25,364 nt of DNA from positions 1-25,364 of IMG/VR virus record IMGVR_UViG_3300049847_000064; one strand, 5' to 3'. Below are positions 1,619-21,896 of this stretch, piece after piece (the stretch's first letter is position 1; every line of letters starts with the position of its first letter). Below the pieces are notes generated by a model. That model worked only from the letters and a program-made list of their open reading frames with translations, did not search any database and was not told the origin of the DNA. Source of the DNA: a virus. A program made the position numbers and the translations under genes.

Positions 1619-2209
1619 TTAGAATCCTACAGAAGTAATATTTGAAAGTTTAAGTTCTGCTAGTAAATCTGCAGAGCTAGTTCTATATGCAGCAGCTTCT
1701 TCATCTTTACCAATTGCTTTAAATACAGTAGCAGCTGCATCATGAATAATTACAAAGGGATGATCTAAAGCAATCCAAGAAGAGTAGGTTGCTTTAGTAA
1801 TATCAGGATTTAAATAACATCCTAATAGGTAAGTTTGTGTTTGGGTAGAGGAGTTAATTTGAATGTAAGCACCGGCCACATAACAAATATCCTGCTTTTG
1901 AATTCTGTAAGAATCAAAAATATTTTCAGGAGTAACAATAGTTAATTCATCTCCTGGAGTTCCAGTACTCATATCATATTTACGTAAGTATTTAAGAGAT
2001 CTCCAGCGAGGAAGTAAAGATCTATAATCTAAACTCTGTACATACTCGGCAGTTTGAAATGAGAGTCCAGATTCAAAAATATCTTTATAGTAATAATCTG
2101 ACTGATGAGCTTTGAGTGTAGCAGCTTTAACTGCCGACTCAGTTTCTGCTACACGGTCGGGTCTGCCAGTCAAAACATAGACTTCAGAACACAGGTCGGA
2201 AAAGTTCAT
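1619..2209 (-). CDS. putative head-tail adaptor/connector protein
   Basis: 196 aa. Starts at ATG 2209 with only a weak GGTGA upstream. The N-terminus (FSDLCSEVYVLTGRPD, then SAVKAATLKAHQSDYYYKD) resembles proteins coded between capsid and tail genes of short-tailed and related phages, where the product caps the portal or bridges head and tail. A P22 gp4-like or gp6-like adaptor role is inferred from that resemblance and from its place between capsid and tail-fibre genes. Its end directly abuts the tail-fibre ATG, so the two genes are probably translated together. No transmembrane segment or signal peptide is seen. It could instead be another minor virion protein. Confidence 0.5.
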   Translation of the reverse strand: MNFSDLCSEVYVLTGRPDRVAETESAVKAATLKAHQSDYYYKDIFESGLSFQTAEYVQSLDYRSLLPRWRSLKYLRKYDMSTGTPGDELTIVTPENIFDSYRIQKQDICYVAGAYIQINSSTQTQTYLLGCYLNPDITKATYSSWIALDHPFVIIHDAAATVFKAIGKDEEAAAYRTSSADLLAELKLSNITSVGF

Positions 2210-16149: not shown

Positions 16150-16193
16150 TGAAACTTTCTTGAAGGGGTCAATCTTTCTCTATATGAGGGGGG

Positions 16194-16222
16194 TTGACAT
16201 TCATTTCGCCCTAGTGTATAGT
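16194..16222 (+). promoter_or_regulatory. strong sigma-70 promoter
   Basis: TTGACA (6 of 6), 17-bp spacer, TATAGT (5 of 6). The start is expected near 16229, giving a leader of about 64 bases before ATG 16293. It lies in the 143-base gap after the helicase gene and is the best sigma-70 promoter seen in the window. Confidence 0.85.
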
Positions 16223-16292: not shown

Positions 16293-16904
16293 ATGACTGA
16301 CTCAATCAATGTAAATGTGGACAACACTGTTGATCTAAAGGAATTCAAATTCCGCTTTAAGAAAGACAAGTTAGGCAATCAGCGTCCCACAGTAGAACTA
16401 AAACTACCTGTTCCTAGTGTTGAAGGAATTGTTTCAATTCTAGAACGTGGCGGAAAAGGTTTAGAACTACTACTAGATGTAGTTTCTGATACAATTCGTA
16501 GCGCTGCTGCTAGTTATGTTGCAGATGACGAAAAGATTTCTCAGACTTCTTTCCCTGTAGAAAAGATTCTTTGGGAAGCAATTGCAAATGCTCCTCGTGC
16601 AGAACGTCGTTCTATTGCAGAAGAAATTTGGGAAGCTTTTGCCAAAGATTATATCGAAATCATGCCTTCAGTTACTGGTAAGTCTGTTGAAGCAGTTACT
16701 AATGCTACTGTTGTTTTTCTTAAGAAGTTTACTATTGTTAAGACCAACAAGGAAGTTCTTGCTAAGCTAAAAGAACAACTCGGTCTGTACATGGAACATT
16801 CCAAGAATGCAGAACAGTTTGCAGAAGTTCTAGAACTACTACTTGCTAAGGTAGATTCTTACCTGAATGCTAATGATACCGAAATGCTGATTGCAAATCT
16901 GTAA
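16293..16904 (+). CDS. conserved-looking early phage protein, 203 aa
   Basis: Driven by the strong promoter at 16194; AAAGGTAA lies 8 bases before ATG. It has a basic N-terminal block (EFKFRFKKDKLGNQRPTVEL) followed by mostly helical, acidic sequence (SVEGIVSILERGGKGLELLL, then IRSAAASYVADDEKISQ and EVLELLLAKVDSYLNAND). No catalytic motif, membrane span or zinc motif. The gene uses a narrow set of codons, as highly expressed genes do. A DNA-binding or structural role in replication is possible but unproven. It is followed by a structured non-coding region. Confidence 0.75.
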   Translation: MTDSINVNVDNTVDLKEFKFRFKKDKLGNQRPTVELKLPVPSVEGIVSILERGGKGLELLLDVVSDTIRSAAASYVADDEKISQTSFPVEKILWEAIANAPRAERRSIAEEIWEAFAKDYIEIMPSVTGKSVEAVTNATVVFLKKFTIVKTNKEVLAKLKEQLGLYMEHSKNAEQFAEVLELLLAKVDSYLNANDTEMLIANL

Positions 16905-17178
16905 TTAGAAATGTTGTCAGTTAGTCTAGAAAATATAGTACACCACTTGACTAAAGATTTCTAGAAAGCAGAATTGCGCTGAGTGGATAGCGGATATCCT
17001 GATAACAGATACAAGCCTGTCACTGTAACTCTACAGGTCATCCTGGACATGATGTAAAACTGTCTACTTGTTTCTATACTGATACATTATAGCTGGTAAT
17101 TAGTAAATTGATGAAGTGTATAAATCTCATCGATCGGGTAGTTTACTAAGTCTATGCAGAAATCTATAGTGTATCAGT
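16905..17178 (+). ncRNA. structured non-coding locus with several hairpins
   Basis: About 270 bases with no gene. Inverted repeats include TCTAGAAA (16925-16932) with TTTCTAGA (16958-16965), GGATA (16985-16989) with TATCC (16995-16999), CCTGT (17016-17020) with ACAGG (17033-17037), and the long 17075-17181 structure listed next. TTAGTC (16921-16926) can also pair with GACTAA (16949-16954), which excludes the first hairpin, so alternative folds exist. No T-loop consensus is present, so it is not a tRNA. Confidence 0.45.
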
Positions 17179-17181
17179 ATG
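17075..17181 (+). ncRNA. 107-nt nested RNA structure with an 18-bp closing stem
   Basis: Stem I: 17075-17092 pairs with 17164-17181 over all 18 positions, 16 Watson-Crick and 2 G-U. Stem II: TTAGTAAA (17100-17107) with TTTACTAA (17142-17149). Stem III: TTGATGA (17108-17114) with TCATCGA (17127-17133), one G-U, stacked directly on stem II, loop of 12. All three wobbles are G-U only in the plus-strand RNA and would be A-C on the other strand, which favours a plus-strand transcript. The ATG of the next gene (17179-17181) is the last three bases of stem I, so translation start would be blocked when folded. Confidence 0.6.
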
Positions 17182-17460
17182 GAAGCTCAGCCTGAATTAA
17201 GACAATATCATCCTATCTGGAAAAGATTAAAATTAGAGCGCAGAGTTTCTGTGACTGCTCCAAGGCCTTTGCACGCTCGCATAATTAAAGCAGTCAAAAA
17301 AGAAAAATGGTTGGATGTAGGATTTAAACTAGAAATTGAAGGTAAAATTGCTATCTTATCTCATGCTAGACAGAATTCTATTCTAACTTTCTTCTTAGAT
17401 ATTAAACCTCACACATTAGATTTCCGAGTTAAAAAATCCATCACAGAAAGAGACTTTTAA
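17179..17460 (+). CDS. hypothetical protein, 93 aa
   Basis: MEAQPELRQYHPIWKRLKLE opens a strongly basic protein (many Lys and Arg) with alternating beta-like segments (VSVTAPRPLHARIIKAVKKE, then GKIAILSHARQN). Such composition fits nucleic-acid binding, but no named fold is clear. No Shine-Dalgarno is visible: the start codon is embedded in an 18-bp stem, so expression is probably tied to refolding or processing of that leader. The stop is followed directly by the next ATG. Confidence 0.6.
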   Translation: MEAQPELRQYHPIWKRLKLERRVSVTAPRPLHARIIKAVKKEKWLDVGFKLEIEGKIAILSHARQNSILTFFLDIKPHTLDFRVKKSITERDF

Positions 17461-21821: not shown

Positions 21822-21896
21822 CTCGCCGTAGTATAATGGATAATACAAAGAGCTTCTACCTCTTGAATATGGGTTCGATTCCTGTCGGCGGGACCA
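21822..21896 (+). tRNA. tRNA-Arg, anticodon UCU
   Basis: A full cloverleaf can be folded. Acceptor CTCGCCG with CGGCGGG (one T-G). D stem GTAT/ATAC with loop AATGGATA. Anticodon stem AAGAG/CTCTT with loop CTTCTAC, anticodon TCT at 21855-21857. Variable loop GAAT. T stem ATGGG/CCTGT with loop TTCGATT. Discriminator A and encoded CCA at 21894-21896. Length 75. It reads AGA, a codon the AT-rich phage genes use often. It is the only tRNA seen and ends 6 bases before the DNA polymerase start. Confidence 0.93.

Follow-up and report, generated by a model that had tools for sequence, protein, structure and literature searches.

Two conserved RNA structures of phage genomes, a compact pseudoknot and a long-stem element, that may set the start of translation

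The locus between p203 and p93

The window, by which we mean the whole stretch of DNA analysed, comes from IMG/VR; this viral contig is 25,364 bases long, carries a tRNA-Arg (TCT) gene at 21822-21896 and codes for a portal protein, a Dda-like helicase and a family A DNA polymerase. The locus described here lies on the plus strand between p203 (16293-16904) and p93 (17179-17460), the latter encoding a small 93-aa protein with a conserved core around R-x-Y-x-P-I-W and beginning without a Shine-Dalgarno (SD) sequence. The p203 product, whose synteny is conserved, belongs to no known family; it matches one unnamed viral model and, among solved chains, nothing below E 0.37. An AlphaFold2 model of p93 (pLDDT 85) gives weak matches to SpoVS/Alba-like small nucleic-acid-binding folds and to Stn1 (Z 5.9 or less), with a best E of 0.13 in Foldseek and of 0.18 in a PDB sequence search, and with matches this weak we dropped any reading of function from the folds of the two proteins. 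Searches with p203 and p93 yield relative loci in which the gene order helicase, p203, p93, p94, exonuclease is kept and the p203-p93 gap is highly variable. Neither the window nor one copy of the long-stem element, used as DNA similarity queries, finds a match among phages or plasmids.

The first-pass annotation of this DNA had described the preceding gene as strongly promoted. A sigma-70-like promoter, TTGACA-17-TATAGT, is indeed present 5′ of p203 (16194-16222, plus strand, 11/12 positions), but promoter-like sites around it are in total not above shuffles. A terminator-like hairpin of 13 pairs (16168-16198) overlaps the −35 box of this promoter. PF00940, sought in 12 records for the idea of a phage RNA polymerase promoter, was unmatched, as was the positive control.

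Downstream of the p203 stop, two pairings lie within 16921-16965 of the plus strand, TTAGTC/GACTAA (16921-16926/16949-16954) and, read from the sequence, TCTAGAAA/TTTCTAGA (16925-16932/16958-16965); they share two bases and are thus mutually exclusive. They had been taken as the mark of a switch-type leader. Both exist and exclude each other as described, but they are found in the window only and not in the p203-p93 gaps of relatives that we examined, and we therefore reject them as a conserved feature. A riboswitch would be expected to keep in relatives an alternative pairing with its closing stem; the closing stem at this locus is 11-25 bp long across relatives, which lends no support to a readily switchable stem, and the window's upstream alternatives are not seen in the gaps examined. 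Further along, a small hairpin, CCUGU/ACAGG (17016-17037, plus strand), with a similar sequence in locus L002, directly precedes the two structures that are conserved, a 28-nt pseudoknot at 17039-17066 (element A) and a 107-nt long-stem structure at 17075-17181 (element B). Of the boundaries originally drawn, 16905-17181, the stem at 17075-17181 stands, but the conserved unit begins at 17039 with a pseudoknot that had been missed.

Element B, a covarying long-stem RNA

Folding and covariation delineate element B on the plus strand as a long stem that encloses a conserved internal loop. Its closing stem, P1, joins 17075-17092 to 17164-17181 through 18 pairs, and the last triplet of the 3′ arm is the p93 ATG (17179-17181). 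A three-pair helix, P1b, follows, formed by CUG (17093-17095) and CAG (17157-17159); the internal loop consists of GUAA (17096-17099) on its 5′ side and GUCUAUG-CAG-AAAU (17150-17163), which contains the P1b partner, on its 3′ side, and the letters of both sides are conserved in relatives. The inner hairpin, P2 (17100-17149), is variable, and in the window pairs UUAGUAA (17100-17106) with UUACUAA (17143-17149) over 7 pairs and then AUUGAUGA (17107-17114) with UCAUCGAU (17127-17134) over 8. The 18-bp closing stem and the inner stems of 8 and 7 bp are those of the first-pass annotation, to which P1b is added; also borne out are its statements that every wobble is a G-U pair only in the plus-strand RNA, as the three U-G pairs show, and that the ATG is the final triplet of a stem outside which no ribosome-binding site exists, the stretch 5′ of the p93 ATG scoring +0.1 kcal/mol against the E. 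coli anti-SD, which may not be that of the host. The plus-strand fold of B reaches −34.9 kcal/mol, compared with −18.6 ± 2.9 for shuffles (0/200 as good, z −5.56); the minus-strand fold is weaker (−23.7 kcal/mol, z −4.53), and that of the whole 277 nt (16905-17181) is less impressive (z −2.6).

Covariation in relatives, a check that had been named beforehand, bears the structure out. Loci nearest the window share the core NUG-GUAAY...GUCwAwG-CAN-AAAU, set within a closing stem of phage-specific sequence. In a seed alignment of 10 phages, chosen by eye and with L017 dropped, two-sided changes affect 16 of the 20 pairs, and 94.9% of cells are paired, as against 65.9% in shuffled and 23-43% in slid alignments; P1b is AUG/CAU in 3 of the 10 and, as judged by eye, AAC/GUU, AUC/GAU or AAG/CUU elsewhere. 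The core motif alone finds 26 distinct elements, and in 25 of these P1, which lies outside the search pattern, pairs at 10-11 of 11 positions, whereas swapping P1 arms among the 26 elements reaches 10 pairs in 9% of cases; their non-Watson-Crick P1 pairs comprise 32 G-U vs 3 A-C. A strand-neutral count with Watson-Crick seeds finds a helix of at least 14 bp in 31 of 75 p203-p93 gaps and in none of the gaps in each of three shuffled sets, the mismatches tolerated in these helices being 24 G-U vs 4 A-C; near-identical loci were excluded by hand from this count and from the p93 SD and stem-end counts below. Element B is a plus-strand RNA that is conserved and strongly covarying.

A covariance model of B matches 15 of 91 sources, namely the ten seeds, their near-duplicates L007 and L009, and the new L017, L032 and L045, all of them in the p203-p93 gap; with filters off and ten loci given, it also matches L047, L078, L037, L044 and L046. 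Searched as whole records, 7 of 20 contain a strong match, one each, and three further records with weak matches only were not counted. Across 31 B elements P1 measures 11-25 bp, is free of bulges, and lies in an element that ends at most 50 nt from the next start codon in 25 cases. In L105, L107, L111 and L118, where p203 and p93 were not found, B occurs without the pseudoknot and before other genes that have a good SD, so that B is tied not to p93 but to the stretch 5′ of a start codon.

The p93 ATG lies inside the stem in the window and in several relatives, and in 19 of 73 loci the p93 start coincides with the end of a stem of at least 11 bp, compared with 9 of 219 shuffled sequences and 1 of 69 p203 starts. 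Helix ends are equally frequent 30 nt 5′ of the p93 start (19 at each position), and overlap with the ATG is therefore not a general rule; the p94 start, which has a good SD, also falls fairly often within stems (7/71). Scored against the E. coli anti-SD, which may not be that of the hosts, the p93 SD is weaker than −2.5 in 52 of 74 loci, with or without B, and the same holds for 12 of 70 p203 and 9 of 71 p94 starts.

Element A, an H-type pseudoknot between genes

A short hairpin is conserved 5′ of B, and because its 5′ flank pairs with the hairpin loop, the two form an H-type pseudoknot. On the plus strand of the window, element A (17039-17066) reads S1a CAUC (17039-17042), L1 C (17043), S2a UGGACA (17044-17049), L2 U (17050), S1b GAUG (17051-17054), L3 UAAAAC (17055-17060) and S2b UGUCUA (17061-17066); it is the only match in the window, and shuffles contain none. 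The consensus has an S1 of NNNC/GNNN, a one-base loop C, an S2 of UNNNNA/UNNNNA and a loop that ends in AAAC. A structure scan of six contigs (two of them incomplete) and the window finds 14 copies, with none in shuffles.

The first scans demanded that both stems be paired, and later ones left one stem free. When the search makes no demand on S1, 3-4 of its 4 positions are paired in 53 of 54 canonical copies. An alignment of 43 copies, whose rows come from a scan that demanded both stems, has 97.0% of cells paired, compared with 78.0% when shuffled and 26-39% when slid; two measures are weak here, the count of two-sided changes being reached by 36 of 500 shuffles and that of pair types by 113 of 500. 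The tests that left out a stem covered 212 new loci, together with five earlier loci in the first test and all earlier loci in the second. With S2 left free and S1 and the loops fixed, 155 of 157 copies among the matches listed pair at 3-4 of 4 S2 positions; with S1 left free except for its last C and S2 fixed, 102 of 102 among the matches listed pair at 3-4 of 4 S1 positions. Non-Watson-Crick pairs, again among the matches listed, comprise 28 G-U vs 5 A-C in the S2 arms, with no bias in the S1 arms (6 vs 5).

Element A is common in viral contigs and is a widespread phage element. Used as a DNA similarity query it matches three phage records, and it is found in a Microviridae record, in Moorella phage MTATph1 and in Nostoc phage NMeng1; the gene that follows the L161 copy encodes a 581-aa protein with a relative in Synechococcus phage S-EIV1 (44.6% identity). 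A precedes 14 of the 31 B elements at a distance of no more than 75 nt, in most of them just a few nt ahead of P1; by eye, others have a different hairpin in its place.

The position of A was analysed in 176 of the 212 new loci (L185-L360), with ORFs called mechanically. Among the matches listed there are 219 distinct copies, 204 of them with full flanks, and in all 36 multi-copy loci the copies lie on one strand. An ORF of at least 50 aa stops at most 20 nt upstream in 115 of these 204 listed copies, with a stop-to-A spacer of exactly 5 nt in 49 of the 115 and of 6 nt in 22. Downstream, an ORF of at least 50 aa begins with an ATG 10-44 nt away in 105 of the listed copies, with a peak at 17-29 nt and a G-poor spacer (0.11 vs 0.22), and in 64 of the 204 the next 75 nt contain no ATG that opens an ORF of at least 40 aa. 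Starts that follow A mostly lack an SD: scored against the E. coli anti-SD, which may not be that of the hosts, the listed matches have a median of +0.4 kcal/mol, with 71 of 105 weaker than −2.5, compared with −4.2 kcal/mol and 256 of 803 for control ORFs. On the same scale and among the same matches, the SD is strong in 27 of the 105 downstream genes; it is strong, too, in the gene after A in Moorella phage MTATph1 and in that of the Microviridae record.

In the 58 stop-pseudoknot-ATG trios among the matches listed, the distance from stop to ATG has a median of 59 nt and its phases are distributed 15/26/17. We reject a stop-codon read-through pseudoknot on this ground, since a downstream gene without phase preference indicates that read-through into it is not the purpose of A. 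Successive copies among the matches listed are a median of 1206 nt apart, only 1 of 77 intervals being under 200 nt, and at L253:2652-13140 seven copies occur on one strand over ~10.5 kb, before different genes. Copies also lie 4-8 nt before tRNA or tRNA-like genes (tRNA-Leu, tRNA-Asp and the pseudo-tRNA of Nostoc phage NMeng1) at L162:2007-2061, L155 ~1963-1992 (minus strand) and L165:1501-1532.

Comparison with known RNA families places neither element. Rfam 15 finds only the tRNA in the whole window, and in 16905-17185, up to E 10, only Ref70 (E 0.36, other strand) and snR56 (E 8.1), both far below threshold; loci of relatives with A or B give no credible match. Leader pseudoknots of single phage genes are known, e.g., that of T4 gene 32, which has the order S1, one-base loop, S2, longer loop and serves the repression of the gene by its own ssDNA-binding product. 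The gene 32 operator of T4 and RB69 is a leader pseudoknot of ~28 nt on which the repressor nucleates; between it and the start codon lies a stretch of more than 40 nt that is less structured and has an SD and UUAAA/UAAA repeats (PMC535899). A is likewise an H-type pseudoknot 5′ of a start codon in a phage mRNA, but its spacer is mostly 17-29 nt and mostly without an SD among the matches listed, and is filled by B in the window; its sequence differs, several copies occur per genome before unrelated genes, and a second domain, B, is present in one clade. With spacing, SD and copy number all differing, we do not file A under the gene 32 operator. The STAXI motif (Weinberg 2010, Rfam) is also a repeated pseudoknot, but its copies stand in tandem, two or three in a row (PMC2864571), whereas those of A, which has no Rfam match, are a median of 1206 nt apart among the matches listed, and this identity was rejected. 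The hatchet ribozyme, known from metagenomes, resembles the locus in that nucleotides of its internal bulges and of the segment joining P1 to P2 are conserved (PMC6154101). Models of pistol and hatchet are unmatched in the window region and in L128 up to E 10, and in six loci up to E 1. The pistol ribozyme also shares with the locus that it contains a pseudoknot. T7-type intercistronic RNase III sites are, like B, long hairpins between phage early genes, but on their general description they have neither the internal-loop core of B nor a start codon in the stem. A literature search at abstract level, with subscription papers and preprints mostly outside it and hence weak, finds no description of A or B.

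A possible role in translation start, and its rivals

We tentatively read the locus, with a confidence that falls a little short of even, as an intercistronic leader RNA that acts in cis and folds into two domains, of which A sets initiation and B gates p93. What the data establish is the two structures, their strand, their place before start codons and the lack of an SD; the effect on translation, the gate and any factor involved are inferred. The first-pass annotation had left the choice between a non-coding RNA and a regulator of the downstream gene cluster; the position of B, so often within 50 nt of a start codon, favours a cis-element, and we keep the non-coding RNA as a rival. Usually a few nt after one stop and shortly before the next, mostly SD-less ATG, A lies where a 30S subunit bound to that ATG would have its upstream edge, and this location points to translation start. 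It might set initiation at such starts by docking the ribosome or, in the manner of the T4 gene 32 leader, by providing a phage RNA-binding protein with its nucleation site. Termination-reinitiation coupling in Haloferax and E. coli drops to near zero beyond ~20-40 nt (PMC10666635), so that plain re-initiation across a median of 59 nt would be unusual, which makes direct ribosome entry or docking more likely than re-initiation alone.

In the window's clade, B would act as a gate between A and the p93 ATG. Its long closing stem joins the two ends of the element and so might keep A close in space to the ATG. Where the ATG falls in the 3′ foot of that stem, as in the window and several relatives, p93 would be translated only once the stem is opened or cut, for which the candidates are RNase III, a helicase and a phage protein. 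Covering an ATG does the reverse of what an enhancer does, and A and B would thus have to counteract each other. Somewhat less probable is a generalisation in which A defines SD-independent starts in polycistronic phage mRNAs, as a bacterial internal ribosome entry device of tailed phages and at least one Microviridae record, with modules such as B inserted before the start codon as removable gates that keep A near the start. Whereas leader pseudoknots are known from single phage genes, the compact one described here is found across unrelated phages, before mostly SD-less genes; both of its stems covary and its spacing is fixed, and in one clade another RNA family separates it from the start codon. 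A and B may thus be a new kind of control element that sets the translation start of phage genes, and should A prove to drive initiation, bacteria would have in it a compact start signal that is independent of the Shine-Dalgarno sequence.

For the copies of A before tRNA genes a translation role makes no sense, and these together with the SD-bearing copies keep alive a role in RNA processing or stability, which we judge somewhat unlikely for the locus. Here A and P1 would mark or protect RNA ends, RNase III cutting P1 to give a p93 mRNA with a short leader and A shielding a 5′ or 3′ end. A P1 of up to 25 bp suits a double-strand RNase, a short leader would account for SD-less starts, and A lies directly before tRNA genes and right after stop codons; protection alone, however, leaves the 17-29 nt peak in ATG distance and the missing SD unexplained, and a mere duplex would not need the conserved internal loop of B. 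That same loop and the very stable closing stem could instead belong to a trans-acting small RNA, in which A-B would be cut from an early transcript and act on host or phage targets, with its place before p93 due to chance or hitch-hiking. A single strong B match in each of the 7 matching records of 20 searched fits this, as does the gap of L031, which by eye seems to contain tRNAs; 25 of 31 B elements nevertheless end within 50 nt of a start codon, the stem includes the start in several, and A is multi-copy in many loci at fixed distances to stop and start codons among the matches listed, so that we regard a trans-acting RNA as improbable.

The put RNAs of phage HK022 are reportedly cis-acting, composed of two folded parts and few per genome, and are said to make RNA polymerase resistant to termination. 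A transcriptional element of this type, acting as nascent RNA on downstream termination, would be in keeping with the few intercistronic copies of A per genome on one strand and with those before tRNAs, which are untranslated, but fixed spacing to the next ATG and SD loss would be unexpected of it; put RNAs also differ from A and B in that the latter are placed before SD-less starts, and we consider this reading very unlikely. An extruded hairpin promoter or replication origin at the DNA level is scarcely credible, for although the inverted repeats are strong on both strands, the excess of G-U over A-C on the plus strand (24 vs 4 in the gap helices, 32 vs 3 in P1, 28 vs 5 in the S2 arms of A) argues for RNA.

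The gap also holds other structures in relatives. Those of L010, L046 and L004 have two successive long-stem elements of differing subtype, the second ending at the p93 start. The gaps of L082, L091 and L094 contain another long-stem element, which may represent an additional RNA family; its copies share the interior UAACU/UUACC-CCUCAGCC-AAGU, and CUUAUAU occurs in their closing stems. At L031:4053-4856 the gap, read by eye, apparently holds two tRNA-like sequences and a small ORF, and from this locus the gap may be a hot spot for RNA genes. A scan of bacterial genomes for p93 finds one contig of 44 kb, L096 (NVSS01000025.1, Coxiella MAG), which appears to be phage DNA placed in a bacterial bin; it contains a helicase-p203-p93-exonuclease block with a terminator-like hairpin 3′ of p203 and a long-stem structure 5′ of p93.
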